A stretch of DNA of 49,609 nt from a virus (IMGVR_UViG_3300031857_011794:1-49609), one strand, 5' to 3'. Numbered from the stretch's first letter, positions 2 to 47,072 are shown. Made by a program: numbers and translations. Notes: generated from the sequence alone by a model not told the origin.

Positions 2-943
2 TTTCCTGTAGTTTATTATGATTTAAGATTTGGAAATTTTTGTAATTTAAAATGTCGTATGTGCGGCCCAACAGATAGTAATGCATGGTACGATGATTGG
101 ATTAAGTTAACTGGCAGTAATAAATTTAAAGATACTGGCGGAATAATGGAAATTGTTGACGGGAATGTTCCAGCTTTTGACTGGCCAGAATACGAACCAT
201 TTTGGGAACAACTTGAGGCAAACATACATAATATCCAACACGTATATTTTGCGGGAGGTGAACCCATGCTAATTGAACGTCATTATGATTTCTTAGAACG
301 TTGTGTTGAAAAAGATGCTGCAAAACATATTATTATTGAGTACAATACCAACATGAGTACACTTCCTACTCGTGTTACAAATTTATGGAAAAGTTTTAAA
401 CAAGTTCGTGTTGGTGCAAGTGTTGATGGTATGGGTGCAATGCAAGAATATCAACGACATCCTGCTAAGTGGCAAAAGACACTAGATAATTTACACAAGG
501 TTGATCAATTGCCAGATAATATTTTTGGTTGGCTTGCGTTCACAGTAACAGCGTATAATGTTAATCATATGATTGATTTTATGAAATGGAAATTAACAGA
601 AAGCGGTTTAAAGAAAATAAACTTCACACAAAAACGCCCAATTATCACACATCATGTTGCACATCATCCAAAACATTTAAATGTACGTGTCCTTCCAGAA
701 CAATACAAAAAAGATGTCACTGTTAAGTTTGTTGAGTTTGTTCAATGGGTAAAAGATAATAATTATCCTGCGCATGTAATTAAACAAGCAGAAGATATTT
801 CTAAAGGCGTAACAAGTTATATGAACAGCGATAATTATTATGATACACACTGGAATGAATTTATAAAATACACACAGCAATTAGACAATATTCGTCAAGA
901 AAATTTGTGCGATGTAGAACCAAAGTTTAAGGATTATATTTAA
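2..943 (+). CDS. Radical SAM protein, 5' end outside the window
   Basis: The reading frame is open to the window edge and the true start lies upstream. The first in-frame ATG (position 59) cannot be the start, because it falls inside the iron-sulfur motif: codons at 41, 53 and 62 give the cysteines of CNLKCRMC (CX3CX2C), which binds the radical SAM 4Fe-4S cluster. A GGEP motif, which contacts the SAM amino group, follows at about residue 86 of the visible part. The visible part is 313 residues. The family cleaves SAM to a 5'-deoxyadenosyl radical; the substrate here is unknown. The C-terminus has few cysteines, so a full SPASM domain is unlikely. The next gene starts at the last base of this one, so the two are probably co-translated. 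Similar proteins are common in marine T4-like phages. Confidence 0.85.
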   Translation, partial: FPVVYYDLRFGNFCNLKCRMCGPTDSNAWYDDWIKLTGSNKFKDTGGIMEIVDGNVPAFDWPEYEPFWEQLEANIHNIQHVYFAGGEPMLIERHYDFLERCVEKDAAKHIIIEYNTNMSTLPTRVTNLWKSFKQVRVGASVDGMGAMQEYQRHPAKWQKTLDNLHKVDQLPDNIFGWLAFTVTAYNVNHMIDFMKWKLTESGLKKINFTQKRPIITHHVAHHPKHLNVRVLPEQYKKDVTVKFVEFVQWVKDNNYPAHVIKQAEDISKGVTSYMNSDNYYDTHWNEFIKYTQQLDNIRQENLCDVEPKFKDYI

Positions 944-1653
944 TGGCTAGTTTTGATACAGTTGATTTGCTTGATGGCAATGTATTCCAAGTAACTTGGG
1001 ATATTGGTCGACGCTGTAATTACGATTGCAGTTATTGTCCAGCTCATAGGCATGACAATTTTAGCCCACATGCCACGTTAGAAGAATTAATCAAAAATGC
1101 AGATTTTATGTTGGAGTATGTAAATTTGTACATGACCTATAGAGATTACAAGAGGGCAAGTGTTAGTTTTACTGGCGGTGAACCAACAGTAAATCCAAAT
1201 TTTATTGCCTTTGCCAAGTACCTCAAAGAAGCATACGAGACCAAATATAAAGACAAGTACGAGTGTAATTTTGCTCTTACTAGCAATGGGGCAATGAGTA
1301 AAAAAATGGCTCAGAAAGTTATGGAAAATTTTGGACACATAACAGTTAGTTACCATGCAGAGGCTGATGACACACTTAAACAACAAGTCAGAGATCGTAT
1401 GGTTCAGTTTCATAAAGAAGGCCCTGCTAATAAATGTAGTATCAGTATCAATGTGATGTTTCATGCCGCATACTTTGACGAATGTGTTGAGCTATGTGAA
1501 TTTTTAGATGACAACGATATAAAATATGTTCCACGTATTATTGGCGAAGAACCAGACAGTAAAAGCAATTTTGCACATCAATACACTGAAGAACAGTTAC
1601 AGTGGATGAAAGATTATTGGTCAAATAACACTAAAAAGGTACAAGCAGCATGA
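943..1653 (+). CDS. Radical SAM protein, catalytic half of a split gene
   Basis: This 236-residue protein carries CNYDCSYC (CX3CX2C) at about residues 26-33 and the GGEP motif at about 78-81, so it should bind a 4Fe-4S cluster and SAM. It ends without the cysteine-rich C-terminal region found in the neighbouring 386-residue paralogue at 2114-3274. That region is instead encoded by the next gene, which overlaps by ATGA at 1650-1653. The two products together have about the same length as the paralogue. I infer that they act as one enzyme made of two chains, or that an ancestral gene was split by a frameshift. Substrate unknown. Confidence 0.85.
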   Translation: MASFDTVDLLDGNVFQVTWDIGRRCNYDCSYCPAHRHDNFSPHATLEELIKNADFMLEYVNLYMTYRDYKRASVSFTGGEPTVNPNFIAFAKYLKEAYETKYKDKYECNFALTSNGAMSKKMAQKVMENFGHITVSYHAEADDTLKQQVRDRMVQFHKEGPANKCSISINVMFHAAYFDECVELCEFLDDNDIKYVPRIIGEEPDSKSNFAHQYTEEQLQWMKDYWSNNTKKVQAA

Positions 1654-2114
1654 GTGAAGAAAAGAAAGAATTGGGTCTAAAAATAGGTAGACCGTGCTGT
1701 GGTAGTAGAACCATGTGTCTAAGTCAAGATGGTGTTGATAGAAAAAGCAAGTTTGTAGATTTTAGAGAATTTAAAGGTTGGCATTGTAGCGTCAATTGGT
1801 TCTTTATGCACATTGAACAACAAACTGATAGTGTATTCCATCATCAAACATGCCAAGCACAATTTGGTCAAACCCGCGGACCAATTGGTAAGTTAAGCGA
1901 AGGCGACAAAATTCTAAAAGAATTAGAAGAGCATTTAAAAGCTGGTACAATGCCAACAATTATATGTCCCAAACACACTTGTGGTTGTGGACTATGCGCT
2001 CCCAAAAGTTCTGATAAAAGCAAATATGAAGCTGTTATGGCTAGACACGTTGACATGAAAGTGTTTGAAAATGCTGTAGAAACAAAACCCAAAGTTATGT
2101 GGATTCAATCTTAA
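1650..2114 (+). CDS. Cysteine-rich auxiliary Fe-S (SPASM/twitch-like) protein
   Basis: The 154-residue product has ten cysteines in clusters (RPCCGSRTMC, GWHCSV, HQTCQA, ICPKHTCGCGLC). The segment around FKGWHC lines up by eye with FKDWEC in the C-terminal part of the radical SAM protein at 2114-3274, and the later cysteines follow in a similar order. It therefore looks like the detached auxiliary-cluster domain of the preceding radical SAM gene, with which it overlaps by 4 bases. In SPASM and twitch enzymes such domains bind extra 4Fe-4S clusters used to hold a peptide or protein substrate. No catalytic CX3CX2C is present, so it should have no radical SAM activity alone. A zinc-binding role cannot be excluded. 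Confidence 0.65.
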   Translation: MSEEKKELGLKIGRPCCGSRTMCLSQDGVDRKSKFVDFREFKGWHCSVNWFFMHIEQQTDSVFHHQTCQAQFGQTRGPIGKLSEGDKILKELEEHLKAGTMPTIICPKHTCGCGLCAPKSSDKSKYEAVMARHVDMKVFENAVETKPKVMWIQS

Positions 2115-3274
2115 TGAGTGATTTAAAAACATCTGCATACGACTTTACACAAATACCCTATGACGATATAGTACGTGTTGGACAACGTACAATGCTTTAT
2201 AGAGACTTATTCACAGTAAGTTGGCTGTTAGGCAGATTCTGTAATTATAAGTGTAGTTACTGCTGGCCTTACGCACGAAGCGATAAAAAAGATCATAGAC
2301 CAACTGAGCTGTGTTTAAAGACTGTTGACGAGATTAAACGTCAAGCTCGTGACCGAGGATTTAATAGTTTCCATTTTAGTTTAAGTGGCGGCGAACCCAC
2401 GTTTCATCCTGGTTATATTGACATTTTGAATCACTTAAACAATGATTCAGAAAACACAAACTATACTAGTGTACATATGACAACGAATATGAGTCGTAGT
2501 TTAGCATGGCATCGAGATGAATATTGTAAGGCAGTTAGTAAATTTCATAGAGCAAGTATCACTGCTAGCCTGCATACTGAACACGTTAATACTAAAGAAA
2601 AAATGAGTGAGTTTGCTGATAAATTAGAATTATGTCAGCAACATGATGTTCAAGTAACTATTAACATGGTAATGGTTCCTGAATGGTTTGATAAAGATTA
2701 TGAGAACGCATTATACTTTCACAATCGTGGAATTAATGTAACATTAAAGCCTCAAAGTGATCCCACTGCTAGTCGTGTAGTTGATGGGTATACTCCAGAA
2801 ATGCTTAAAGTATTACACAACGGAATGCCGCAACGTGGCTATACAGAAGCAAAGGCAGCAGAAGCTAAGTTAGTAGTTAGACCAGAACCCACATTTAAGA
2901 AAGTTCCAGATCCTATATATTCACAAGATACTATCCCGCAACACTTTCAAGTAGAGTTTGTGGACAAAAATAAAAAAGTTTGGTACATGGATCAAGCTGA
3001 ACGATTTAATGCATTTAACTTTAATAAATTTAAAGATTGGGAATGTTCAAGCGGATACCGTAGTATTATTATACGTGAACCTGACGGCAGTATCAAACGT
3101 AGCTATAGTTGTCATGACGCTCCATTAGGCAATATTGAAACTGGATTTAACTTATTTGATGGTCCTAAATCATGCATTACTTCTAGTTGTGTAAGTAGTG
3201 CTGACAGTAAAATACCCAAAAGGTCGCCGGGAACAAAGTTGCCTCTGTGGCCCGGCGATAACTCTTACAACTAA
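2114..3274 (+). CDS. Radical SAM protein with C-terminal cysteine-rich domain
   Basis: The product is 386 residues from the ATG at 2114, which overlaps the previous stop as TAATG; a GTG 15 bases upstream is a less likely start. CNYKCSYC (CX3CX2C) is at about residues 43-50 and GGEP at about 96-99. The last 80 residues contain five cysteines (WEC, YSC, SCITSSC) in a SPASM/twitch-like arrangement. The architecture equals the two preceding genes joined together. Function and substrate are unknown; the family modifies peptides, proteins or small molecules by radical chemistry. The stop codon overlaps the stop of the convergent thyX gene. Confidence 0.85.
   Translation: MSDLKTSAYDFTQIPYDDIVRVGQRTMLYRDLFTVSWLLGRFCNYKCSYCWPYARSDKKDHRPTELCLKTVDEIKRQARDRGFNSFHFSLSGGEPTFHPGYIDILNHLNNDSENTNYTSVHMTTNMSRSLAWHRDEYCKAVSKFHRASITASLHTEHVNTKEKMSEFADKLELCQQHDVQVTINMVMVPEWFDKDYENALYFHNRGINVTLKPQSDPTASRVVDGYTPEMLKVLHNGMPQRGYTEAKAAEAKLVVRPEPTFKKVPDPIYSQDTIPQHFQVEFVDKNKKVWYMDQAERFNAFNFNKFKDWECSSGYRSIIIREPDGSIKRSYSCHDAPLGNIETGFNLFDGPKSCITSSCVSSADSKIPKRSPGTKLPLWPGDNSYN
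3224..3258 (+). repeat. GC-rich inverted repeat near the 3' end of the radical SAM gene
   Basis: Arms TCGCCGGG (3224-3231) and CCCGGCGA (3251-3258) are perfectly complementary, with a 19-base loop. This is unusually GC-rich for the genome. It lies inside the coding sequence, just before the stop, and no U-tract follows, so it is not a standard terminator. It may slow or end transcription before the convergent thyX gene. Confidence 0.4.
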
Positions 3275-6632: not shown

Positions 6633-6661
6633 ATTATAACACCGCCCGAAGGCGGTGTCAA
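6633..6661 (-). promoter_or_regulatory. Consensus sigma-70 promoter for the VWA gene, spacer is a hairpin
   Basis: On the minus strand, TTGACA (6656-6661) and TATAAT (6633-6638) are separated by exactly 17 bases. The spacer together with the last three bases of the -35 box forms a perfect inverted repeat with a TTCG loop. Transcription should start about 20 bases before the AGGAG ribosome binding site of the VWA gene. Confidence 0.85.
6639..6658 (-). terminator. 8-bp stem with TTCG tetraloop between moxR and VWA genes
   Basis: The arms 6639-6646 and 6651-6658 pair perfectly (ACACCGCC/GGCGGTGT) around TTCG, an exceptionally stable loop closed by C-G. It lies 14 bases after the moxR stop. Only a short T-rich stretch follows, so termination may be partial. 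It overlaps the promoter of the next gene. Confidence 0.6.
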
Positions 6662-11769: not shown

Positions 11770-12314
11770 TTTATCGTTTCCATATGATATGTTAATGTTT
11801 CTAACGGGAATATTGGACTAATTTTATTCTCGTAAAATTCTAAATTTGATTCAGCAAATGGTATTAACAATTTTTGGAACCAAGTTTGATCAATTCCTTC
11901 GTTAAATGTTTTGCGATGCATTTTAAATTTACAAGGACTATATGCATATCTTTCATGATATGTATGTCCTTTTACAAAATAGCTCAATGTATCTACTGTA
12001 AAAAAGTGAACATGTGTTGGATCAACGCAGGCCCATTTACTGCGGAAATACGGCACAATAATAGTAACAGTAGCACCTGGTTTGGTTATGCGATGAATTT
12101 CTTCCATTGTTTTAACAATGTTGTTTAAATGTTCTAATACATTGTCTAAATGTACAACATCAAACTCACCACTCTCAAACGGCCATGGAAATACATCTAA
12201 GTTGTGTACTACATCAGCACCAACATTTTCGTTAATGTCTACAGTAACAATAGTATCTCCAGGATTTCCTGGACGTTCTTTCTTACCACATCCGAGTACT
12301 AGTAATTTTGCCAT
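11766..12314 (-). CDS. Class I SAM-dependent methyltransferase
   Basis: The 182-residue protein begins MAKLLVLGCGKK (SAM-binding motif I, LGCG at 7-10). It has VDIN (acidic end of strand 2) and FDVVHLDNVLEHL, typical of class I methyltransferases. I start at the ATG at 12314, which overlaps the queE stop as TAATG. The substrate is unknown. Position directly behind queE makes methylation of a modified base or a sugar possible, but this is inference. Confidence 0.88.
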   Translation of the reverse strand: MAKLLVLGCGKKERPGNPGDTIVTVDINENVGADVVHNLDVFPWPFESGEFDVVHLDNVLEHLNNIVKTMEEIHRITKPGATVTIIVPYFRSKWACVDPTHVHFFTVDTLSYFVKGHTYHERYAYSPCKFKMHRKTFNEGIDQTWFQKLLIPFAESNLEFYENKISPIFPLETLTYHMETIK

Positions 12315-13180
12315 TAGGTACCCCACTCATTTTTAAATAGTGGCACTTGTAATCTGTCACTATAACGCCATCCACGTTTCATAGCAAGATCGGCCACCTT
12401 ACGATTGTTTAATGCATACACACTTTCTACACCGCCAACTGGCATTAGATAAACATGTCCAGTGAAACCTGCTTTACGATATTCTTCAGTAGCACGTTCT
12501 GCATCGGCAAAGTCTTGTTCTGTAGCAATAACAAATTTTAAATATGCTGTACCATACTCTTCGTACTCACATACAATCTCAGGACAGATTGCTTCTTCCC
12601 ACTTCTCGCCACTACAAGGAAGTTTAGCACTTACACTAAATGTAATCTCACGCCAAAAATCTTGATCATGATGACTTTTCCAAGTATGCAAATATGAAGC
12701 AAATTCTGGAGTTAATTTTTGAGTACCGTTTGTTTCAAAAGTAATTTCTCTAAGACGCCACATACTAGGATGATCTAACAAATCTGGATAAGCACGTTGC
12801 CAACCTAACAACGGCTCTCCGCCTGTAATAACTAGATGCTCATCTTCCCAACGCTTGTGCGGAAGTATCTCCATAATACGATTTACAATAGCGTTACTTT
12901 CTAACATTGGACTTAGATCTTTAAACTCTGGCATCCATGATGCATAGCTGTCACAACCTGTGCTTACAAGCGGCAAGTCTTCATACTTTTGAAAAGACTC
13001 AATCATTTTGTGTGTTGCCGCAATGTCAGTAGCTTCGTGACTGACTTCACCACGTGGCATGCCAAAGCCTGCGCATTTAAAGTTACACCCAAATGTACGC
13101 AGAAACACAGACGGGACACCCATGTAGCGTCCTTCACCTTGGATACTGTAAAACAGTTCCGCTATTTTAATTTTACTCAT
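12314..13180 (-). CDS. queE: 7-carboxy-7-deazaguanine synthase QueE
   Basis: QueE converts 6-carboxy-tetrahydropterin to 7-carboxy-7-deazaguanine using SAM, a 4Fe-4S cluster and magnesium. The 288-residue product opens with the QueE signature FYSIQGEGRYMGVPSVFLRTFGC and has GGEPLLGW at about 120-127. The cluster motif is unusual: C32 and C36 are in place, but the third cysteine is probably C76 (GCDSYASW), after an insertion of about 37 residues, instead of CX3CX2C. I start at ATG 13180 (AGGA upstream), which overlaps the previous stop as ATGA. folE, queD and a DpdA-like gene complete the pathway in this window. Confidence 0.93.
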   Translation of the reverse strand: MSKIKIAELFYSIQGEGRYMGVPSVFLRTFGCNFKCAGFGMPRGEVSHEATDIAATHKMIESFQKYEDLPLVSTGCDSYASWMPEFKDLSPMLESNAIVNRIMEILPHKRWEDEHLVITGGEPLLGWQRAYPDLLDHPSMWRLREITFETNGTQKLTPEFASYLHTWKSHHDQDFWREITFSVSAKLPCSGEKWEEAICPEIVCEYEEYGTAYLKFVIATEQDFADAERATEEYRKAGFTGHVYLMPVGGVESVYALNNRKVADLAMKRGWRYSDRLQVPLFKNEWGT

Positions 13181-13566
13181 ACACAATCCTGTTCTTTTGC
13201 CATTTTTGTTATTATAGCACGTTCTTCTTTATTTTGTCTAGTATTACGAAACTCTTTAACGTCTGCTGATGCAGTTACAAGAGTTTGAGCATAATTAATT
13301 GTTTGTTGCTCTTTCAAACAAATAGTCGATTCGGTATCAATATACCCTTTGGTAAGTAATGTCCAAATATGTGTCCAGCGTGACTTTGACCAAAAGTTTG
13401 TTCTAGTAGTAACATAGATGTTAACAGAAATACCTGTATCATCAGACTCTACCCAGACATTGTGATCACAATCTGTATTAGAACATTCGCAAGCAACTCG
13501 ATAAACTTTTGAATCGCCCCAATCGTTTTGCTTCAAAATACCTTCTGCTGGAGTTTGGGCTTTCAT
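13177..13566 (-). CDS. Hypothetical protein (129 aa)
   Basis: The middle contains CECSNTDCDHNVWVE, a cluster of cysteines and a histidine that could bind zinc. The rest is soluble, with a lysine/glutamate-rich C-terminus. It resembles unassigned proteins in marine T4-like phages. It sits between folE and queE in one overlapping operon, but nothing links it chemically to the pathway. A possible queE promoter (13211-13240) lies inside its 3' part. Confidence 0.75.
   Translation of the reverse strand: MKAQTPAEGILKQNDWGDSKVYRVACECSNTDCDHNVWVESDDTGISVNIYVTTRTNFWSKSRWTHIWTLLTKGYIDTESTICLKEQQTINYAQTLVTASADVKEFRNTRQNKEERAIITKMAKEQDCV
13211..13240 (-). promoter_or_regulatory. Possible internal promoter for queE
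   Basis: On the minus strand TAGACA (13235-13240) and TATAAT (13211-13216) are 18 bases apart, about 30 bases before the queE start. The -35 has one mismatch and the spacer is slightly long, so this is weaker than the other promoters listed. Confidence 0.4.
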
Positions 13567-13895: not shown

Positions 13896-14110
13896 TCTAC
13901 ATCTTCCTCAAACCATTCGTCAACCATTGTTTCTGCTTCGTCTTGCGTTAACGCCGGAACAAAAATACGTGCTGGATGTCCAACTGTATGTTGTATATCA
14001 AATTTAACCACACCTGCTGGTATGTGATCGAATTCTCTCTCTACAATAAATTCTTGTAAATTCTTTGCACGGAAAATTAATTGATCAGTTAAGTCTTTAG
14101 CTGTTGTCAT
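13892..14110 (-). CDS. Hypothetical protein (72 aa)
   Basis: A small acidic protein (ends DEWFEEDVE) with a likely alpha/beta fold, directly behind folE with a 4-base overlap. No family recognised. Confidence 0.72.
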   Translation of the reverse strand: MTTAKDLTDQLIFRAKNLQEFIVEREFDHIPAGVVKFDIQHTVGHPARIFVPALTQDEAETMVDEWFEEDVE

Positions 14111-14877
14111 CTTGGGGCAAACTCCTGTTGTAATTTAATGTTATCAAAAAACTCTTTCTTAGCACCTGGATCAGTTTTAAATGAACCAGTAAGTACAGTT
14201 GTCTGTGTTAATGAACTATGTGCCATAATGCCGCGATTCTCACAGCAACCGTGTGTTGCTTGAATGTATACTGCTACGTTTTTGGAATTTGTTGCTCGGC
14301 TGATTTCCCTAGCAATGTCATTGCAAAGTTCCTCCTGGAGAGTACCTCGACGGGCACACCACTGAGCGATCCTTGTATACTTGCTAAGTCCGATGAGTTT
14401 CTCAGCCGCAATAATACCAATATAAGCAACGCCAGTAACGGGTTGGTGATGATGGCTACACATACTGCGAAGCTCGCTACGAACAACCAGCATGCCTTCA
14501 TAACGGTCCGCCGAATCATTTGGAAAACATGTTGCGTCTGGTGCTGATTCATATCTACCTGCCATAATTTCGTTAAAATACATCTTAGCAAGTCTACGTG
14601 CTGTGCCTTTGCTATTAGGATCGTTTTCTCTATCAATAAGTAAACTATCAAGCACTTGCTCAAATGCAGGTGTTGCTTCGTCAATTAATTTTTCTATATC
14701 ACCTTCGTGCAAGTATTCACTGATGTTATCACCTGCCCAAAAACGTTTACCTTCACGTTTCATCTTAAAACGAATATGATCGCCTAAGTATGCTTCTTTG
14801 TAATCTTTGTTGTCGTCGCCTTGTTGTTCTGCACCGGTAAGTGCGTTCTTCAAGTCTTCTGTTGTAAATGTTGTCAA
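14107..14877 (-). CDS. folE: GTP cyclohydrolase I
   Basis: The enzyme converts GTP to dihydroneopterin triphosphate, the first step to 7-deazaguanines as well as folate. The 256-residue product has SMCSHHHQPVTG with the zinc ligands near C140 and H143, IGLSKYTRI, QEEL, and HGCCE with the third ligand near 211. The start is a TTG codon at 14877, because GGAG lies 7 bases upstream and no in-frame ATG precedes it. A perfect sigma-70 promoter lies upstream, so this gene leads the folE-queE operon. Confidence 0.95.
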   Translation of the reverse strand: MTTFTTEDLKNALTGAEQQGDDNKDYKEAYLGDHIRFKMKREGKRFWAGDNISEYLHEGDIEKLIDEATPAFEQVLDSLLIDRENDPNSKGTARRLAKMYFNEIMAGRYESAPDATCFPNDSADRYEGMLVVRSELRSMCSHHHQPVTGVAYIGIIAAEKLIGLSKYTRIAQWCARRGTLQEELCNDIAREISRATNSKNVAVYIQATHGCCENRGIMAHSSLTQTTVLTGSFKTDPGAKKEFFDNIKLQQEFAPR

Positions 14878-24298: not shown

Positions 24299-24327
24299 AT
24301 TTTAACTGATATTGACGCTTGTGTCAA
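24299..24327 (-). promoter_or_regulatory. Sigma-70 promoter for clamp and dpdA
   Basis: On the minus strand TTGACA (24322-24327), 17 bases, TAAAAT (24299-24304). The -35 box is embedded in the 13-mer at 24320-24332 that also occurs at the dsbA promoter, and TTGAC is repeated in inverse 6 bases downstream. Confidence 0.82.
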
Positions 24328-31408: not shown

Positions 31409-32686
31409 TTATTTCTTTGCCATTATGTCTTTTTTAACTTTGCCAGCAATCTTGTTAGCAACTTCAGTTGAATAACCAGATTTTTTAGCACTAGTAACTA
31501 CACCTTTGAAACCTTTGTTCCCACCAGTGTTAGGCTTGCCTACATCACCAGTTCCTTTTTTAGCTTCCATGTATGTGCCACATTCTTTTAAACCGTGGAC
31601 TGGACATGCTTTACCTTTAGGTGTATGGTTGCATTTGCCTTCACCAAGTGCCGCACTGGCATTTGCTTTCTTTAAATCTGCGCCAGTGGCTCTCATGCCT
31701 GGTACTGTAGTTGTTGCTGTTGCTGGGATGGCAGATTTAGCAGCAGCACTAAGTTTATTACCTATTTGTCCTATGCTTTCTTTTGTTTTAGAACCAGATC
31801 TGCTGGCTAAAAATTCTTCATCTTCAGCATCCTGTTTGTTTCGACGGCGGAGATTAACTTTGTCTAGTGCATGGCTTTTTGCCCATTCATCTTCTTCAGC
31901 ATCACGTTTGGCTTGTCGTTCTTTGGCAAATTTTTCTTCTGCAGATTCTTTAAATGGTAAACCGGCTGCTTTACGACGTGAACCAAATACTTCTTCTTTT
32001 TCAGTTTCTACTTCACCATCTTTATCAAAGTCTCTTTTAGCTTTCTTTGATTTTTTAGCTTCGTCTAATTCTTCACCTGAACCACTGTCTTTAAGACGAA
32101 TGCTAGCCACTGTCCATCCGCCACTACGTGCATCACGTGCGGCACGATCACGCACTTCACTTTGCGCTTCGCCTTCGTCAGCAGTAATAGTCATGCCTTT
32201 CGTCGCGCCGTCTTTTTCTAACTTGACAAAGTATTGCTTCTTTTCAGACTTTTCAACTTTGCCTTTCTTTTTGTCTGTTGCACGTACACCACTTGCTTCA
32301 TCGACCTTTTCTTCTTTCTTCTTGATCTTTTCAGCTTGAGCTTTCTTAAGGTCTTTGATCTTTTCTTTAGCTTCCATTAACTTGCCTCTTAGAGCACGTT
32401 TTTGGCTTTCTGAATAAACATCGCTGTCATCGATAGCTTGGCCGTATTCGCTAAACTTCATTTCGTATTCCATATAGTGGTATACGCTAGCGACATAATC
32501 AGCTGCTTTTGTGATCTTAGCCTGTACCCAACCTTCTAGTTGTGTATTAGCTTCCATCATTTTAAATAGTTTTAAACTGTAATTTGCTAACTTGTATAAG
32601 TCAGCTTTGGCCATAGCACCTTCACGGTCTCTTTCGCCGCCTGGTAAGCCATTCATATCATCTTGTGGTTGCATATCGATGTGCAT
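31409..32686 (-). CDS. Charged virion protein with EF-hand-like motif (425 aa)
   Basis: Strongly charged, Lys/Glu/Ala-rich, with predicted coiled coil at about 85-130. A DFDKDGEVETEKEE segment near 222-235 has the DxDxDG calcium-loop pattern seen in EF-hand/dockerin-like repeats. The helical N-terminal part (LYKLANYSLKLFKMMEANTQLEGWVQAKI) resembles a conserved marine phage module. A Cys/His group (CNHTPKGKACPVHGLKEC) near 355-372 could bind zinc. Probably structural or capsid-internal. GGAG ribosome binding site and late-like promoter upstream. Confidence 0.7.
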   Translation of the reverse strand: MHIDMQPQDDMNGLPGGERDREGAMAKADLYKLANYSLKLFKMMEANTQLEGWVQAKITKAADYVASVYHYMEYEMKFSEYGQAIDDSDVYSESQKRALRGKLMEAKEKIKDLKKAQAEKIKKKEEKVDEASGVRATDKKKGKVEKSEKKQYFVKLEKDGATKGMTITADEGEAQSEVRDRAARDARSGGWTVASIRLKDSGSGEELDEAKKSKKAKRDFDKDGEVETEKEEVFGSRRKAAGLPFKESAEEKFAKERQAKRDAEEDEWAKSHALDKVNLRRRNKQDAEDEEFLASRSGSKTKESIGQIGNKLSAAAKSAIPATATTTVPGMRATGADLKKANASAALGEGKCNHTPKGKACPVHGLKECGTYMEAKKGTGDVGKPNTGGNKGFKGVVTSAKKSGYSTEVANKIAGKVKKDIMAKK

Positions 32687-36093: not shown

Positions 36094-36965
36094 TTCAACA
36101 TCCTTAGTGTGCGACTAAACCATTCGTTAGTACCGACTGTGGGAGTTGCGGCTTGCCAACTGCTAGATGCCTTTGCCTTGTCGAAAATTTCATTACGTTT
36201 TGCTTCGTCTGGAATAGCATCCATTATACTTTCAACACTGCCCAAACTATCTGCATTTGCGTTTGGTCCAAGTAACGTTTGAGCAATAACATTTAAATCA
36301 TCACTAATAAACTCTGCCTTCTTACCAGCAGCATCGCGTTTGTAAAGACCTTCGTCTGGACTCCACAAAAATCCTCCACTGCTAGCAAGTGTATTAATCA
36401 TCATTTGTTTATTAACACCTTTGTATGGACTGCCTGGTGGGATAGCGTGGTGATGAAATCTACTTACAATTTCTGCTTTAGGAACAATTTTAATGTCCAC
36501 TTGATAAAAACCTTCACCATAAGGAATGAGTGTATGAACTGTTACACCAGCTTTGTGGGTTTTTAAACCTTTTTCTTTTAAGAAATCATCTAACGCTTGA
36601 CGTGTTGTTTTTCCATCTTTAGTCTTAAAGAATCTAGCAGCATCATTTAAATCTGCCATAACGTCTAAGTCGCCAGATCTTTTTGGTTTTAGTTCAACAC
36701 CTTGTGGTAATTCTCCAGTGTTGTATTTGTCTGCGTATGCTTTAACTGGAACAAACTTTTGTTCACGCTCTCTGTAGATACCAATAAGCTCACCACCTAA
36801 ATAAGCATTTTGCGTAGGCGTAGCACTACTACCAATGACATGAATCTTTAGACCAATTTCACTGACAAACTCTTCAGTGGTTTGAACTAAACCGTCAATC
36901 ATTTCAACAGTTTGTTCGTAATCAGTACTCTCAGGCCAAATGTTGCCGCCTTCGTTTAAAATCAT
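36090..36965 (-). CDS. Pol-beta-fold nucleotidyltransferase
   Basis: The 291-residue product carries the minimal nucleotidyltransferase signature: HVIGSSAT at 42-49 (hGS), SGDLDVM at 97-103 (D99 and D101) and YQVDIKIV at about 165-172 with the third aspartate D167. These bind two metals and an NTP. Members of the fold add nucleotides to RNA, proteins or small molecules; many toxins and tRNA enzymes belong here. The start MILNEG would allow cleavage at LNE. Overlaps both neighbours by 4 bases. Confidence 0.82.
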   Translation of the reverse strand: MILNEGGNIWPESTDYEQTVEMIDGLVQTTEEFVSEIGLKIHVIGSSATPTQNAYLGGELIGIYREREQKFVPVKAYADKYNTGELPQGVELKPKRSGDLDVMADLNDAARFFKTKDGKTTRQALDDFLKEKGLKTHKAGVTVHTLIPYGEGFYQVDIKIVPKAEIVSRFHHHAIPPGSPYKGVNKQMMINTLASSGGFLWSPDEGLYKRDAAGKKAEFISDDLNVIAQTLLGPNANADSLGSVESIMDAIPDEAKRNEIFDKAKASSSWQAATPTVGTNEWFSRTLRMLK

Positions 36966-37366
36966 TTGTAAGCCCCTTCACGCATATTCGTCATCTCAGA
37001 TTCGTGAATTTTCTTACAAATTTCTTCAATCATTTCTTTATCTAATTCGTCTCTAAGTTCTCTTAATGGGAATTCGTCTTTGTATATGCTATACGCTTTT
37101 GTAACAACTGGTTTAAACACTCTGTGCGAAAATGATTGACCTTGATCAAACTGTTTCTTACATAAGTTTAATATAGGAAAGAATTTTTTACGATAAAAAT
37201 CATCGTTGTTGTGCATGAAATAGATAATGTCTTCAGCAAGATCGAATGAATATTCGTCATCTGCTGAGCTATGATCATTGGTCTTTTTATTCAGCCCAAT
37301 TTTATCTAGCTCAAGTTCATCATCTATGCTCTTTGATGTATTATTGAATAGTTCTGTAATTTTCAT
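36962..37366 (-). CDS. Hypothetical protein (134 aa), first gene of the nucleotidyltransferase operon
   Basis: Starts MKITELFNNTSK, close to the M-[RK]-[LI]-x-E-L pattern of the capsid-targeting-like starts in the same operon. The body is charged and helical (FDLAEDIIYFMHNNDDFYRKKF). No motif identified. Its 4-base overlap with the Pol-beta-fold gene suggests a partner protein, for example an antitoxin-like or adapter subunit, but this is a guess. Confidence 0.72.
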   Translation of the reverse strand: MKITELFNNTSKSIDDELELDKIGLNKKTNDHSSADDEYSFDLAEDIIYFMHNNDDFYRKKFFPILNLCKKQFDQGQSFSHRVFKPVVTKAYSIYKDEFPLRELRDELDKEMIEEICKKIHESEMTNMREGAYK

Positions 37367-37418: not shown

Positions 37419-37426
37419 ATATTTAG
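37419..37426 (-). promoter_or_regulatory. Late-promoter-like element CTAAATAT
   Basis: Lies 53 bases upstream of the nucleotidyltransferase operon start, preceded by a direct repeat of AGCTAAAT. Confidence 0.45.
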
Positions 37427-37456: not shown

Positions 37457-38119
37457 TTAAGCTGGAATTGCGTTGATTACGCGGTCTATTCTGCTGATTT
37501 CACTGCCTAAAAACATCTTCACCATGGTAAGAGACTTCTCATCTTTAACATAGAAGTAACTGCCTCCCCATGAATAGTCAGCTGACAATTCTTGTATGCA
37601 TTTCTTAGTTAATCGAACTTTGTCACTAGTATTAGCCCATTTAATAAAGCTGTCGTAACTAGTACGAGTCTTACCCATGGTTATTTTGAATTCAAAATCA
37701 ATCTTAGGTAAAAATACAGTGTTCTTTTCCAACTTGGGATACAAGAATTCGTCTGGAATACTAACATACTTTGTACGATCAATATCAACAGACGTTAACG
37801 ATACTACATCGTTAAAATCATTAGTGTAAAAACTTAATAACGGATGTTCAACTCTAATATCAAAGTTTTGAAAACTTGATAGTTTGTGTTCGAGAATTAA
37901 GCAAAAATCTAAATCCGCTAAACTTCTTAATTTACTCCATGGGGGAGACAATAAGGGTAGTTTAGTTGGATCAATTGCTTTTAGTTTGTGCCTTGCAAAG
38001 TCTAAATCACAACCCCTAAACCAAGCTGAAACTGGACATACCAGTACTGCCTTGTACTGGTATTTGTCCATAAAAAGTTTTTTAGTTTTCTTGACTAGTA
38101 TTTTCTGGTTGAGTTTCAT
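37457..38119 (-). CDS. Hypothetical protein (220 aa)
   Basis: No family recognised. The core (YKAVLVCPVSAWFRGCDLDFA, LRSLADLDFCLILEHKL) looks like a compact alpha/beta protein. The last 40 residues include SWGGSYFYVKDEKSLTMVKMF. The start at 38119 overlaps clpA by 38 bases; ATG 38071, after the clpA stop, is an equally possible start. No good ribosome binding site at either. Confidence 0.7.
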   Translation of the reverse strand: MKLNQKILVKKTKKLFMDKYQYKAVLVCPVSAWFRGCDLDFARHKLKAIDPTKLPLLSPPWSKLRSLADLDFCLILEHKLSSFQNFDIRVEHPLLSFYTNDFNDVVSLTSVDIDRTKYVSIPDEFLYPKLEKNTVFLPKIDFEFKITMGKTRTSYDSFIKWANTSDKVRLTKKCIQELSADYSWGGSYFYVKDEKSLTMVKMFLGSEISRIDRVINAIPA

Positions 38120-40349
38120 TTTCTAGCAATAATGGCTTGATTATTTTTATTCTCTTAGTAAGAGTAATTTCACCGTTTAACGAGCCAATAGTCAAATGCC
38201 CGCCATTCTTTAGTTCACCAAATAACATCATCTTACTTAGCGGACGTTTAATTAGTTGATCAATAGTTCTCTGCAAAGGACGAGCACCCATTTTTGAATC
38301 AAATCCTTTTTCAATTAGTAGTTCAATTGCAGATTTGTCAATCTTAATTTTAATGCCCTTTTCTTTGACCTGTGCGCTCAATTCTGCAATAAACTTGTTA
38401 ACAACCTTAACCATAATGTCTTTGCCAAGTTTCTTAAAGGTAACAACAGCATCTAATCGATTACGGAATTCTGGAGCAAAAAACTTCTTTAGATCAGAAT
38501 CAGTGTAGTCTTTTTCTTGTGCACCAAAGCCAATTTGATTTTTTTCACTTGCTTGTGCGCCAGCGTTAGTGGTCAATATAAGAATCAAGTTTCGGCAATC
38601 AGCTTTCTTACCATTGCTGCCAGTAACAAACCCGTTATCCATTAGCTGTAACAAAATTGTACTTACGTCTGGATGTGATTTTTCAACTTCATCAAACAAT
38701 AATACACAATTTGGATTCTCTTGAATTTGTGTAATTAGCAAGCCAGCATTTTCTTCAAAGCCAACATATCCTGGGGGACTACCGATTAGTTTAGACACAC
38801 TGTGTTTTTCTTGATATTCACTCATATCAAAGCGAATAAGTTTAACACCTAACTGTTTAGCAAGTGCTTTTGCAGTTTCAGTTTTACCACAACCAGTTGG
38901 ACCCATAAACACAAAACTACCAACTGGTTTATTATCAGCTTTAAGTCCTGCACGGGCAACAAGAATTTTATCAACTACTTCTGTAATAGCAGTATCTTGC
39001 CCATACACCTCTGCTTGTAACTCTGTTTCCAAAGTAGACAAATTACTGGATTCAGTTTCGGCAATTTGCTCTGCTGGCATTTGAACCATTTGTGCTAGTT
39101 CGTATTGGATTTCACGTTCACCAACAACTCGTTCATCTGCAAGTTTTAAGTTAAATCGAGAACATGCACAGTCAATTAAGTCAATTGCTTTATCAGGCAA
39201 CTTCTTATCTGCTTGATATTTAACGGACAACTTAATTGCAACATGTAAAGCTTCATCAAGAATTTTAACTTTATGATGACCCTCGTAATACTTCTTAAGA
39301 CCTTTTAGAATTTGCAATGCTACTTCTGGAGTGGGCTCATCAACTGTAATGCGTTGGAAACGACGCATGAGCGCACGATCTTTTTCAAAGTGCTTGCGAT
39401 ATTCATCCCATGTAGTTGACGCTACAACTTTAATGTTACCTTTGCTTAATGCAGGCTTCATCATGTTGGCAAGGTCATTGGCACTATTTCCAGAACTGCC
39501 AGCACCGCTAATCATGTGTGCTTCGTCAATAAACAGTACAGTCTTGCCTTTCTTTTCTAATGCTTTGAGAACAAGTTTAAAACGTTCTTCAAAATCTCCA
39601 CGATATTTAGATCCAGCAAGCATGGCACTGATATCTAAATTAAACACTTGGTAATCTTTTAGAAAATCTGGAACTGCACCATTAACAATGTTAAAAGCAA
39701 GGCCTTCAGCAATAGCGGTTTTACCAACTCCTGGATCACCAACTAGCATTACGTTATTTTTACTTCTACGTCCCATTGCTAGAGCAATATTTTCTAATTC
39801 TTCAATACGACCTATTACAGGGTCAATTTTATTCTTCTTAACTGAATCGTTAAGATTGGTTGTGAATGCTTTTAACGCTCTTTCGCTTTGATTATCATGC
39901 ACTTCTTCTTCGCCGCTTTCTACTTCGTTGTTAATGTAATCGGCAAATTTATCTTTGTCAATTTCTGCTTGTTGAATATAATATAATGCCCATGATCGTT
40001 TTTCACCCATCATTGCTAGGAAAACGTCTGATGGTTCAATTTGTTGACGACCATTAAACAACACTTGTGTAAACGCACGATTTAACACACGTTCAACTGC
40101 TTGTGTCTTTTTAGGTTTACCAACGGTATTGGTCACAATATCGTTGAGTTTAGTTTTTAGATAATGTTCAAGATTTTTTTTGATATACTCGGGATCAGCA
40201 CCGTATCCTTGAACACATTTAAAGAAACTTTCTTCGCACAGCATGGAAAAAAGCAAATGCTCAACAGTCAAGTACTCGTGTTGTAGTTTTTTGGCTACAT
40301 CAATGGCCTTTTCAAAAACTAACTTTAAATTCTCACTTGGTTCTACCAT
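38082..40349 (-). CDS. clpA: ClpA-type AAA+ unfoldase
   Basis: A full-length 755-residue ClpA. An N-terminal Clp-N domain (to about 140) is followed by two AAA+ modules with Walker A GDPGVGKT at 204-211 and GPTGCGKT near 480, and Walker B LFIDEAH and LLFDEVEKSH. Between the second Walker B and the C-terminal D2-small domain lies NQIGFGAQ, the IGF/IGL loop that docks onto ClpP. The phage product could therefore drive the host ClpP protease or compete with host ClpA. The window has no clpP. It has its own strong promoter and follows dnaJ. Confidence 0.95.
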   Translation of the reverse strand: MVEPSENLKLVFEKAIDVAKKLQHEYLTVEHLLFSMLCEESFFKCVQGYGADPEYIKKNLEHYLKTKLNDIVTNTVGKPKKTQAVERVLNRAFTQVLFNGRQQIEPSDVFLAMMGEKRSWALYYIQQAEIDKDKFADYINNEVESGEEEVHDNQSERALKAFTTNLNDSVKKNKIDPVIGRIEELENIALAMGRRSKNNVMLVGDPGVGKTAIAEGLAFNIVNGAVPDFLKDYQVFNLDISAMLAGSKYRGDFEERFKLVLKALEKKGKTVLFIDEAHMISGAGSSGNSANDLANMMKPALSKGNIKVVASTTWDEYRKHFEKDRALMRRFQRITVDEPTPEVALQILKGLKKYYEGHHKVKILDEALHVAIKLSVKYQADKKLPDKAIDLIDCACSRFNLKLADERVVGEREIQYELAQMVQMPAEQIAETESSNLSTLETELQAEVYGQDTAITEVVDKILVARAGLKADNKPVGSFVFMGPTGCGKTETAKALAKQLGVKLIRFDMSEYQEKHSVSKLIGSPPGYVGFEENAGLLITQIQENPNCVLLFDEVEKSHPDVSTILLQLMDNGFVTGSNGKKADCRNLILILTTNAGAQASEKNQIGFGAQEKDYTDSDLKKFFAPEFRNRLDAVVTFKKLGKDIMVKVVNKFIAELSAQVKEKGIKIKIDKSAIELLIEKGFDSKMGARPLQRTIDQLIKRPLSKMMLFGELKNGGHLTIGSLNGEITLTKRIKIIKPLLLENETQPENTSQEN

Positions 40350-40396
40350 TCTCGTTCCTTTGTTATTATATCAGATAAACAATACCTTCAAACTCT

Positions 40397-40424
40397 ATTA
40401 TATACGAAACTTGTAACTTGTCAA
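40397..40424 (-). promoter_or_regulatory. Sigma-70 promoter for clpA
   Basis: On the minus strand TTGACA (40419-40424), 16 bases, TATAAT (40397-40402). The -35 box is the centre of a small palindrome, AACTTGACAAGTT. It sits just after the dnaJ stop, giving a leader of about 40 bases. Confidence 0.83.
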
Positions 40425-40439
40425 GTTATTTTTTAGAAG

Positions 40440-41276
40440 TTATTGAGGTAAATTATTAATTTCTTTTTGAATGGCTTCTAGTTTGGCTCTTATTGTACTA
40501 TCAGTAATTGATGGAACTTTGACATTAACAATAATGATAAAATTACCAGTTTGTCTATGCCTTGAGTTTTGAAACCCCATTCCAGAACACGAATATTCGT
40601 CACCGTGTTGAACACCTGGACGAATCTTGACCTGTAAAGTTTTATCATCAATTGTACGGATCATTTTTTCAACGCCTAGCATAGCGTCAAATGTGGATAA
40701 TTCAATTTGCGTACAAATGTCATCTCCACGTCTAAAATATTGTAAATCAGGATCTACAAATATAGTAACGTTCAAGTTGCCTCTTGGGGCGCCTGGAATA
40801 CTATCGTCGCCTAATCCATTATAGCGTATAGTTTGTCCAGTTTCAATGCCAGGTGGGATATTAATTACAACACTTTGTTGTTTACCAGTCATCATTTGAT
40901 ATAGTGCTTCTAGTTCTTTACCCAAGAAGCTGTCTTTTAATGATATGTTGAGACGAATGCCCAAATCTCTGTTGCGTCTAGATTGTTGGTGAAAACCGGC
41001 AAATCCTGGACCGAACCTAAATCCAAACATTTCATTAATGTCGTGGAAGCCGCCAGCACTGCCAAAGGGATTCCATTCTTGTTGTGAACCGCCAGCATCG
41101 TACTCAGCTCGTTTTTGTTCATCGCTTAACGTGCGATACGCTTCTTCAATTTCTTTGAATTTCTTTTCGTCACCACCGCGATCTGGGTGATGCTTCATAG
41201 CCAAGGCACGATATGCTTTTTTGATATCTGCCTGGCTGCAATTAGATTGTAATCCGAGAGTTTCGTAGTAGGTCAT
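40440..41276 (-). CDS. DnaJ-type J-domain co-chaperone (CbpA-like)
   Basis: From ATG 41276 (MTYYETLGLQ) the product is 278 residues. The J domain (1-65) carries HPD in KHHPDRGG near 33-35; a Gly/Phe-rich linker follows to about 100, then two DnaJ C-terminal beta domains. The cysteine-rich zinc domain of classic DnaJ is absent, so it is a class B J protein like CbpA. It would stimulate host DnaK. Its promoter puts the predicted transcription start at the A of this ATG, and no ribosome binding site is present. This favours 41276 over upstream starts. Confidence 0.93.
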   Translation of the reverse strand: MTYYETLGLQSNCSQADIKKAYRALAMKHHPDRGGDEKKFKEIEEAYRTLSDEQKRAEYDAGGSQQEWNPFGSAGGFHDINEMFGFRFGPGFAGFHQQSRRNRDLGIRLNISLKDSFLGKELEALYQMMTGKQQSVVINIPPGIETGQTIRYNGLGDDSIPGAPRGNLNVTIFVDPDLQYFRRGDDICTQIELSTFDAMLGVEKMIRTIDDKTLQVKIRPGVQHGDEYSCSGMGFQNSRHRQTGNFIIIVNVKVPSITDSTIRAKLEAIQKEINNLPQ

Positions 41277-41282
41277 CATATA

Positions 41283-41311
41283 ATTATACAACATGTTGAC
41301 CTACTAGTCAA
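41283..41311 (-). promoter_or_regulatory. Sigma-70-like promoter of dnaJ, probably leaderless
   Basis: On the minus strand TTGACT (41306-41311), 17 bases, TATAAT (41283-41288). The -35 overlaps a 6-bp inverted repeat (GTTGAC/GTCAAC, 41295-41312) that could be an operator. Predicted +1 is at 41276. Confidence 0.82.
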
Positions 41312-41322
41312 CATTCTGATTA

Positions 41323-41853
41323 TCAATCCCTTAGAGGCATATCCCCGTCATCCATTGGTTTGCTGGATGCTGGTTTTTTAACAGCCATTGGGGTTACTGG
41401 TGTTGGAGACGTTGCCGCTCCAAATCCTGTATTACCACCAAAGCTACTTGGTGTTGGGCTTGCTGCCGGAGAACCAAATCCTCCTGGTGCTGCACCAAAT
41501 CCTGATTGTGGTTGGCTAGGTGTTGAAGATCCGTTTGCAAAACCTGCTCCTGGTGTTTGTATTCCGCCATTGTTTGCTCCTGCCATTTTTTCTTGTGTAC
41601 GACCAAATGCTGCAATACCCAACACAGCACCCATAGCAATATGGAACAAGCCAGCACCTTGTAGTGTTAGTGGATTCCATTGGCTTGTAACTGATCCACC
41701 ATTTAATGACTGTAACAAACTCCATAACACTGGAAATACAACCATGTCCATGGTGCAGACCAACATGTACATCCAACCCATCATTGGACGCCATTTTGAA
41801 TTCATCCAATCTTCTTTTTTCTTTTCGCTTTCGCTTTTAATTTCTTCTGACAT
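41323..41853 (-). CDS. Holin-like membrane protein with Gly/Pro-rich tail
   Basis: The 176-residue product has a charged N-terminus (SEEIKSESEKKKEDW), a hydrophobic span at about 24-47 (MGWMYMLVCTMDMVVFPVLW) and another at about 67-84 (GLFHIAMGAVLGIAAFG). A long Gly/Pro/Ser/Ala-rich tail follows, ending DDGDMPLRD. The layout resembles holins of marine phages of the 3-TM type. Position next to the spanin genes supports a lysis role. Confidence 0.7.
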   Translation of the reverse strand: MSEEIKSESEKKKEDWMNSKWRPMMGWMYMLVCTMDMVVFPVLWSLLQSLNGGSVTSQWNPLTLQGAGLFHIAMGAVLGIAAFGRTQEKMAGANNGGIQTPGAGFANGSSTPSQPQSGFGAAPGGFGSPAASPTPSSFGGNTGFGAATSPTPVTPMAVKKPASSKPMDDGDMPLRD

Positions 41854-42018: not shown

Positions 42019-42639
42019 TTATTTAACGCTTTCAAAGATTTTCTTTTGTTCCTTGTACCACTCTTGCCATGCTTCTAGTTTGGCTGCGTTTTCGTGACAG
42101 CTTCCGTAGTTTTCAACGACTCTGTCGAGGAGCTGACTGGCTTTAACTTCGCTGGGGGTTCCATCAGTTGCGGCGGCACGTCCGGCCACTTCATTACGAC
42201 TGGCGCTGTCGTGCAAGCTGACAGTAGACTTAGGCAAAGCACACTGAGCATCCAATTGCTTGCCCGCAACTTCTTTGATAATTTCTCTGTTAACATATAC
42301 ATTTTCCTTGACTACTTTAATTTTAGTAACTACTTTTTCTTGAATTACAACATTTACTTGCTGACTCTTTTCTTCTGCTATTTTTACTTTTGCTTCAAGT
42401 TCTTCAACTCTAGCCCGCCATATCATTTCAGTGCCATAACTTCCAAACAAATACATGCCAGCTGATAATAAAACAACTCCTACCAATTCTGCTGGCAATT
42501 TATATTGCCCCATCATAGGAATCCAAGTAACCAACTTACTGGCTACATATAGCCCAATACCCAATGCGATAATAATGTAGGTGAGCCAAATGAAAATGCC
42601 ATCTGGTATTAAACTTATCATCCATCCCAATTGAGCCAT
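42019..42639 (-). CDS. Inner-membrane spanin-like protein (Rz-like)
   Basis: The 206-residue product has hydrophobic spans at about 6-32 (ISLIPDGIFIWLTYIIIALG) and 50-66 (ELVGVVLLSAGMYLFGSYG). A coiled-coil region follows (about 72-125, VEELEAKVKIAEEKSQQ), then a helical C-terminus. A lipoprotein gene is nested inside in another frame, the classic Rz/Rz1 arrangement. Together they should fuse inner and outer membranes at lysis. The second membrane span is unusual for i-spanins. Confidence 0.75.
   Translation of the reverse strand: MAQLGWMISLIPDGIFIWLTYIIIALGIGLYVASKLVTWIPMMGQYKLPAELVGVVLLSAGMYLFGSYGTEMIWRARVEELEAKVKIAEEKSQQVNVVIQEKVVTKIKVVKENVYVNREIIKEVAGKQLDAQCALPKSTVSLHDSASRNEVAGRAAATDGTPSEVKASQLLDRVVENYGSCHENAAKLEAWQEWYKEQKKIFESVK
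42075..42302 (-). CDS. Outer-membrane spanin lipoprotein (Rz1-like), nested
   Basis: The 75-residue frame lies fully inside the i-spanin gene. It has a basic N-terminus (KLSKKLRASN), a hydrophobic signal core (WMLSVLCLSLLSAC) and a lipobox ending at C30. The mature part is proline-rich and contains WPDVPPQLMEPP, a pattern usual in Rz1-type proteins. A lipoprotein signal by chance in an alternative frame is unlikely. Confidence 0.82.
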   Translation of the reverse strand: MYMLTEKLSKKLRASNWMLSVLCLSLLSACTTAPVVMKWPDVPPQLMEPPAKLKPVSSSTESLKTTEAVTKTQPN

Positions 42640-43370
42640 TAGATCATCTCCAACGCAACTGCGTATCCATTATTTTCAAATATAAATGTGTTGTTAATTT
42701 TTGTAATGTTGTAGTTGCCAAGAGTTTTTGTTAAAAACATTATCTCACTCATGTCTTTGGATCCTAGTTTGATAGCACCCGGAATTCTGCTGTACAATGC
42801 ATCTTTACGATCAAAATCTTTAATACGCATATTAACAGATTCAGCAAATACTCTTTCAAACCTAATGTCGTCCTCTAGTACACTGACGTTTTCGGCAAAT
42901 CCTCTTCTAAAGAAATTAGAAAAATTATTCATTTCGTTATTTGCAACTCTTTCATCATAGCTGTCTATGTCTTTGGGAATTGCTGCTTCCAAAGTTTCTA
43001 AATCAGCCGGAATACTTTTAAAACTCTTGTAGTATCTAAACTTCCAATTATTGCTGCCAGTTAATCTGCTAGCGCCGTCTAATAGTTCTATAATTTGTTT
43101 TGACACGTGTTTAGTTCTTTCAATCTCAACAAACACTTTAAATTTTCCGTTGTCCACTGGTCCGTTAGTTGCATCAGCGTCAACAACAAAGTCGTAACCC
43201 ATTTCAAAAAATCTTGCAAGGTCATCTGCTGGGGCTTTACTATCAGCAGTAAAACTTAGTACAACCAAATCTCCGTCTTCGCCAATTTTACTTTTATAGC
43301 TGTCAATTTCAAAAACGTGACTGATTAAATTTACCAAATCACCTGCGACTAAATCTTCATTAATTTGCAT
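42639..43370 (-). CDS. Conserved-looking phage protein (243 aa)
   Basis: Begins MQINEDLVAGDLVNLISHVFEID, resembling a conserved family of marine T4-like phages. INE at 3-5 would fit the [LI]xE protease rule. The middle has an acidic region and FKFRYYKSF-like element (WKFRYYKSFKSI). No catalytic motif. Start and previous stop share one base. Perhaps a virion component. Confidence 0.75.
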   Translation of the reverse strand: MQINEDLVAGDLVNLISHVFEIDSYKSKIGEDGDLVVLSFTADSKAPADDLARFFEMGYDFVVDADATNGPVDNGKFKVFVEIERTKHVSKQIIELLDGASRLTGSNNWKFRYYKSFKSIPADLETLEAAIPKDIDSYDERVANNEMNNFSNFFRRGFAENVSVLEDDIRFERVFAESVNMRIKDFDRKDALYSRIPGAIKLGSKDMSEIMFLTKTLGNYNITKINNTFIFENNGYAVALEMI

Positions 43371-43909
43371 TATGCTGGTGCTCCTGCCGCTGGTGCTGCC
43401 GCGGTTGGCGGTGCTGCTGGTGCTGCTGCTGGTGCAGCTGGTCCTTGATTTCCAGCTGTTGGGTTCTTGCTAGAACGCTCTTCTCTAATACGATCCATAT
43501 ACCCGTTAAAAATATCAAACACTAATTTTTTAGGCATTGCAATTTCTACAACCCAGATAGGTTTGGAATCTAACTTGCCCTTCTTTGTTCCAGGACGTAA
43601 ATCATCAGGTGTTCTAATCTTGCGCGGCTCTACCTTTTGTGTTTTTTGAAACGTAACCTTGCAGCCTAATTCTGTTAATCTTTTAGCAGCGATTGGGTCT
43701 GGCATTTTGTTATAGTCCCACATGAATTCTGCGGTAACCCAATGTCTATCTACTTTTGGTCCGCTAGCTAATTCTCCGTCTTGCCAGTTTTTATATACGT
43801 ACATATCCATTTCGTCTAGAACTCTTTCAAAGTCCTTTAGAATAGCCAAGCTGGAATTGTTGTTATAGATGCTTTCTACGTTTTTAATTACTTCTAAAAT
43901 ATCGCGCAT
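43370..43909 (-). CDS. Conserved-looking phage protein with Ala/Pro tail (179 aa)
   Basis: The N-terminal 145 residues (SLAILKDFERVLDEMDMYVYKNW, FMWDYNKMPDP) resemble a family found in T4-like marine phages. The last 30 residues are a flexible Ala/Pro/Gly tail. No function known. Its start is preceded by a late-promoter-like element and it is the first gene of the minus-strand block next to phoH. Confidence 0.75.
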   Translation of the reverse strand: MRDILEVIKNVESIYNNNSSLAILKDFERVLDEMDMYVYKNWQDGELASGPKVDRHWVTAEFMWDYNKMPDPIAAKRLTELGCKVTFQKTQKVEPRKIRTPDDLRPGTKKGKLDSKPIWVVEIAMPKKLVFDIFNGYMDRIREERSSKNPTAGNQGPAAPAAAPAAPPTAAAPAAGAPA

Positions 43910-43935: not shown

Positions 43936-43943
43936 GTATTTAG
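43936..43943 (-). promoter_or_regulatory. Late-promoter-like element CTAAATAC
   Basis: Lies 27 bases upstream of the start at 43909, in the divergent region with phoH. Same sequence as at 32706-32713. Confidence 0.5.
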
Positions 43944-47043: not shown

Positions 47044-47072
47044 ATTATACAGGTAAGAACAGGACTAGTCAA
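47044..47072 (-). promoter_or_regulatory. Sigma-70-like promoter of the clamp loader operon
   Basis: On the minus strand TTGACT (47067-47072), 17 bases, TATAAT (47044-47049). The -35 box is in the loop and foot of a 10-bp hairpin. Confidence 0.83.

Follow-up and report, generated by a model that had tools for sequence, protein, structure and literature searches.

A J protein and ClpA gene pair with early-type promoters in a freshwater jumbo phage, and its relation to phage-encoded ClpP, ClpS and DnaK

Clp and J proteins of large phages have been listed before. The authors of the Atu_ph07 genome already described ClpA (gp292), DnaJ (gp293), ClpP, ClpS, ClpX and ClpB (PMC6102473), a 2021 review of jumbo phages covers ClpA, ClpP, ClpS and DnaJ and regards ClpS as a partner of the host ClpAP (PMC7824862), and ClpA is a core gene of the moraphages, for which mostly Bacteroidota hosts were predicted (PMC12619734). 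That is, phage ClpA, ClpP, ClpS and DnaJ were each known singly. The DNA analysed here (the window) is the whole IMG/VR record IMGVR_UViG_3300031857_011794, 49,609 bases, which is classed as linear and is probably a fragment; its source is a freshwater jumbo phage of a T4-type lineage.

The J-clpA locus and its proteins

The window carries the two genes on the minus strand, among virion and lysis genes:

36962..37366, minus strand: orf134, the gene after orf220, with a late-type promoter
37420..37426, minus strand: CTAAATA late-type motif of orf134
37457..38119, minus strand: orf220, a phage-specific protein, sharing 38 nt with the end of clpA
38082..40349, minus strand: clpA, Hsp100/ClpA-type AAA+ unfoldase, 755 aa (domains, E. 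coli alignment, phrog_4871 with E 1e-247)
38526..38534, minus strand: IGF codons (aa 606-608) of the predicted ClpP-docking loop, invariant in 73 distinct relatives
40397..40424, minus strand: clpA promoter, sigma70-type, TTGACA-16-TATAAT, 12/12 match
40440..41276, minus strand: class B J protein, 278 aa (alternative starts 41279 and 41294)
41266..41306, minus strand: inverted repeat TAGTAGGTCAACAT / ATGATGACCTACTA; its loop holds the -10 box and its 3' arm the J start codon
41283..41311, minus strand: J promoter, sigma70-type, TTGACT-17-TATAAT, 11/12 match
41323..41853, minus strand: holin-like gene, immediately 5' of J
42019..42639, minus strand: Rz-like spanin (phrog_8821, phrog_1403)
42075-42302: Rz1-like lipoprotein ORF, embedded in the Rz-like spanin gene
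42639-43370 and 43370-43909, minus strand: two virion structural genes (phrog_13138, phrog_12928)
43937..43943, minus strand: CTAAATA late-type motif 5' of the virion gene 43370-43909, found in 100% of 39 relatives

IMG/VR holds at least 599 relatives of the window ClpA, the best 80 of which are all at least 76% identical to it. Among these best 80, the order virion-Rz-holin-J-(peptide deformylase)-clpA-orf220-orf134 is common: orf220 and orf134 follow clpA, with orf220 always immediately 3' of it, J lies upstream where the contig extends there, and holin and Rz precede J in most relatives whose contig reaches that far. The peptide deformylase gene separates J from clpA in 39/73 loci (e.g., L207 5427-5954) and is absent from this position in the window itself. 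The structure model of orf220 is confident (pLDDT 93.8) and, searched against the PDB, gave no match at E<=0.001, matching only other phage proteins; orf220 is possibly an adaptor or a substrate.

A preliminary description of this DNA had reported a class B J protein followed by a full-length ClpA with an intact ClpP-docking loop; both identifications held. The predicted ClpA comprises Clp_N, two AAA modules with Walker motifs and a ClpB_D2-small domain, a ClpB middle domain was looked for in it and not found, and it aligns end to end with the E. coli ClpA structures (PDB 1ksf and 1r6b; E 4e-194), its IGF standing opposite the E. coli IGL. It is like E. coli ClpA in domain order, length and docking loop position, but is only 43% identical to it and falls on a separate branch of the tree. 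The best family is TIGR02639 (NCBIfam ClpA), with a score of 873.6 bits that is below the equivalog cut-off of 993.15, and the protein is a divergent phage branch of ClpA by sequence, which we do not file as the bacterial equivalog. Residues E23, E28, T81 and R86 are retained in phage ClpA. The ClpP-docking tripeptide (IGL or IGF in the D2 loop) is present, and all 73 distinct ClpAs of the window clade have IGFG at 606-609 while the flanking positions 605 and 610 are among the most variable, a pattern that supports ClpP docking in this clade. IGF is also retained in the ClpA of Atu_ph07, Phosso and PA5oct.

The J open reading frame encodes an N-terminal J-domain, a G/F-rich linker and DnaJ_C, and no zinc finger, and is therefore a class B J protein; its HPD motif is invariant in the J proteins of all relatives. 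We placed its start from the promoter position and the J-domain alignment within the longest open reading frame (40440-41294). Since the frame that begins at 41294 overlaps with the -10 box (41288-41283), 41276 is the likelier start; it would lie at or near the transcript start, giving a leaderless J message.

The neighbourhood of the two genes might suggest that ClpA, J and Hsp70 act as a ClpB-like disaggregase or unfoldase while ClpP works separately. J adjoins clpA in the window, Atu_ph07 and PA5oct, with one gene between them in Phosso, and the docking loops of RaK2-like ClpAs have drifted (IGV, LGM, MNM), both of which would fit such a role; the missing ClpB middle domain, the invariant IGFG of the window clade and the co-carriage of ClpP and ClpS (below) speak against it, and we consider it very improbable.

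Promoters and the hairpin at the J start

A strong promoter had been noted before each gene; both are present as listed above, and they differ in conservation. The J promoter matches at 11/12 positions or better in 87% of 52 loci vs. 0.6% of shuffled sequences, with an overall retention of 87-92% of the 52 loci vs. 0.6-3% in shuffles. The clpA promoter is only partly conserved, reaching at least 10/12 in 37% of relatives, and is more frequent in loci that lack the intervening peptide deformylase gene (56%) than in those that have it (22%). The starts of the flanking virion and late genes are instead preceded, at 18-58 nt, by a late-type motif, G(C/A)TAAATA, which resembles the core of the T4 late promoter and occurs in 100% of relatives at the 43370-43909 gene and in 95% at both orf134 and c425 (31409-32686). 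In PA5oct, ATAAATA precedes the structural genes next to J-clpA but neither J nor clpA. The T4 late motif TATAAATA itself is absent from the window, where it would be expected about 5 times. Being an internal gene of a long operon, the major capsid gene lacks a late motif immediately before it and is therefore not usable as a clean positive control for the motif. Of 47 loci of the DnaK-HSP20-ClpS operon in the relatives, 74% carry TAAATA and 2% a sigma70 promoter, while clpP mostly has no promoter of its own, so its timing is not readable from motifs. Judged by these motifs only, and with a sigma70 consensus that may not be that of the host, J-ClpA appear to be early and DnaK-ClpS late. Other sigma70-type promoters of the window also overlap inverted repeats (6633-6661, 24299-24327 and 47044-47072), e.g., ACACCGCC-TTCG-GGCGGTGT in the promoter spacer at 6661.

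The J leader is much more strongly folded than shuffled sequences (mean z -3.0 over 53 loci), compared to +0.36 for clpA and -0.53 for orf220. Two types of hairpin were found. In the first (27 loci), most have a T run after the stem and the -10 box in the loop, i.e., a terminator combined with a promoter; in the second, seen in the window and its close relatives, the J start codon is in the 3' arm and the -10 box again in the loop. Folding of the J leader alignment found no structure; since the aligner had slid the hairpin arms, an arm-swap test replaced it, and in this test each arm paired better with its partner from the same locus than with those of other loci, for both types (permutation p 2e-4). 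That is, the window and its close relatives have a covarying hairpin over the J start codon with the promoter inside it, and the long stem was not seen at some loci whose promoter lies right at the J start codon. Two loci (L018 and L025) have a strong terminator hairpin with a T run right before J, yet no sigma70 promoter.

A comparable arrangement is known from the leaders of T4 genes e, soc and 49, where a hairpin that contains the promoter masks the start in read-through RNA, so that transcripts from the late promoter are freed whereas those of early read-through are silenced (PMC3014915). The J leader would work like the start masking of T4 gene e, with the direction of regulation reversed: the silenced RNA would be that of late read-through, and J would be freed by transcription from its early-type promoter. 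Hence, we do not file it as a member of the T4 group. We favor, as the probable explanation, that J and ClpA are an early-expressed unit made up of a co-chaperone and the unfoldase subunit of a ClpSAP protease that the phage itself encodes. The host sigma70 polymerase would start J-clpA from the promoter inside the hairpin. In other relatives, late transcripts running in from the virion and lysis genes upstream would be terminated at the hairpin, while in the window the stem of such read-through RNA would sequester the J start codon, so that J would be made from its own promoter. Such an early promoter within a start-masking hairpin would account for the persistence of an early gene in a block of late ones.

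The main rival reading, owing to the gene neighbourhood, is that J and ClpA are late morphogenesis chaperones that fold, assemble or quality-control virion proteins. Virion and lysis genes surround J-clpA in the window, the PA5oct pair is flanked by structural genes confirmed by mass spectrometry, clpA adjoins tail-sheath genes in RaK2-like phages, and ClpA and ClpX have been proposed as virion-assembly aids (PMC7824862). However, the J promoter is of early type and J appears to be insulated from late read-through, RaK2-like clpA is also behind sigma70 promoters (extended -10, in 5/7) although it lies among structural genes, and a gp21-like S77 protease fills the role of head protease. We regard a morphogenesis role as unlikely. 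ClpP as the head protease in its main role was likewise ruled out, the head operon holding the S77 protease.

ClpP, ClpS and DnaK in the lineage

The reported lack of clpP is correct for the 49.6-kb fragment, in which clpP, clpS and dnaK were not seen, but does not extend to the lineage. In 10/10 relatives whose contig includes the two genes, they share a strand and clpP is located 41-57 kb upstream of clpA; the window reaches only 9.3 kb upstream of clpA and probably lacks clpP because the fragment ends before that distance. All clade contigs of sufficient length to reveal clpP carry it (10/10), and five long clade genomes (G021, 345 kb; G022, 400 kb; G035, 356 kb; G036, 383 kb; G037, 172 kb) carry ClpA, ClpP, ClpS and DnaK. 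Its presence across the whole clade can only be inferred, because some ClpA contigs are fragments, and the window's own virus presumably carries clpP as well. Here, the singly known parts combine: ClpP and a ClpS-like match were found in each of the ten complete genomes of cultured ClpA-carrying jumbo phages that we examined (the XaC1 ClpS match being below the cut-off), and DnaK in 0/10 of them. Where a ClpS match occurs in a genuine record of a cultured phage, that phage belongs to the same kinds as the ClpA carriers. The window clade adds DnaK and HSP20 to this set, with the order dnaK-HSP20-clpS-heme oxygenase-bilin reductase in 64-65/66 loci (L203 5628-8925, L204, L289-L368). One relative, G026, has a full GroEL (536 aa) adjoining DnaK (L205 5521-7131). 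The clade thus appears to bring a largely complete protein-quality-control kit rather than use only that of the host.

The catalytic triad S97/H122/D171 of phage ClpP is retained in 74/74 sequences, and so are most of the docking-pocket positions, which we take from E. coli ClpP; at position 112, 67/74 have Lys where E. coli has Phe, and docking to ClpA may differ from that in E. coli. In phage ClpS, N34, D35, T38, H66 and K84, the N-degron-pocket and ClpA-contact positions, are retained in 59/59. ClpA, ClpP and ClpS would accordingly assemble, with ClpA as the unfoldase of a phage ClpSAP whose other subunits are encoded outside the fragment, and J would hand unfolded clients to Hsp70, host DnaK first and phage DnaK later. 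The substrates, we speculate, are N-degron or aggregated proteins of host and phage. With this co-carriage, the idea of an N-degron protease owned by the phage can be put directly to the test.

The preliminary description had instead proposed a host takeover, in which phage ClpA captures host ClpP, J captures host DnaK, and host proteolysis is redirected. The invariant IGF loop and the early-type promoters fit redirection of host ClpP, and the J protein looks functional; what found no support is that the phage must use host ClpP or depend solely on host DnaK, since the lineage encodes its own ClpP, ClpS and DnaK, and the unlike position 112 of the ClpP pocket may favour a self-contained machine. 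Early recruitment of host DnaK is still conceivable because the phage DnaK operon has late-type promoters, which would leave only host DnaK to an early J. As the whole explanation, takeover is improbable; as an early phase of the favored early-unit model, ClpA and J could use host ClpP and DnaK. A tentative extension of that model is deployment in two waves, with J (often together with peptide deformylase) and ClpA early and DnaK-HSP20-ClpS late, as self-contained ClpSAP and DnaK/J/HSP20 machines. If true, this would represent a timed switch between substrate sets.

Full-length ClpA had been described as rarely reported in phages, a view contradicted by the abundance of IMG/VR relatives and by cultured jumbo phages including Atu_ph07, Phosso, PA5oct, RaK2, 121Q and GAP32. 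A ClpA phylogeny, which had been suggested as a check, was run with 21 phage and 40 bacterial sequences and placed the phages together on one side of a branch (SH-aLRT 99). Recent transfer of ClpA from a host is ruled out by this tree, in which phages branch apart from bacterial ClpA, and phage ClpA appears to be an old phage lineage. The top database ClpA matches, labelled "Acinetobacter phage MD-2021a" (CAKLQF/CAKLQH), were set aside as probable bacterial contamination because clpS adjoins clpA and dnaK and clpB are on other contigs; fragments labelled Listeria or Enterococcus phage were likewise set aside. Such contaminated phage records skew searches for housekeeping-like genes. Elsewhere, the window has a row of radical SAM genes (59-3274), and a QueE-like gene (12314-13186) and a GTP cyclohydrolase gene (14107-14877) that suggest 7-deazaguanine chemistry.

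Comparison with described phages

The moraphages resemble the window phage as large freshwater phages in which ClpA belongs to the core genes and DnaK, DnaJ and HSP20 occur in some (PMC12619734); the IMG/VR names of the window clade were not found in the text of that paper. The RaK2-like phages (RaK2, GAP32, 121Q, XaC1 and Munch) share a phage-branch ClpA, ClpP and ClpS-like genes and, in most, a sigma70-type clpA promoter, but no J gene was found in them and their docking loop has drifted. The gene order of PA5oct (Pseudomonas, Arenbergviridae) is closer, with PhoH(-)-structural-hypothetical-DnaJ-ClpA-structural and with ClpP and ClpS in the genome, although its ClpA is 42% identical, no lysis genes lie between, the J protein is shorter and a sigma70 promoter was not seen before J. 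In Atu_ph07, the ClpA is 41% identical, and neither a hairpin-promoter before J nor DnaK was found; as in the window, J and ClpA are adjacent on one strand in the same order, and ClpP and ClpS are in the genome. Finally, the Sinorhizobium phage Phosso has peptide deformylase between J and clpA, as do 39/73 loci of the window clade.
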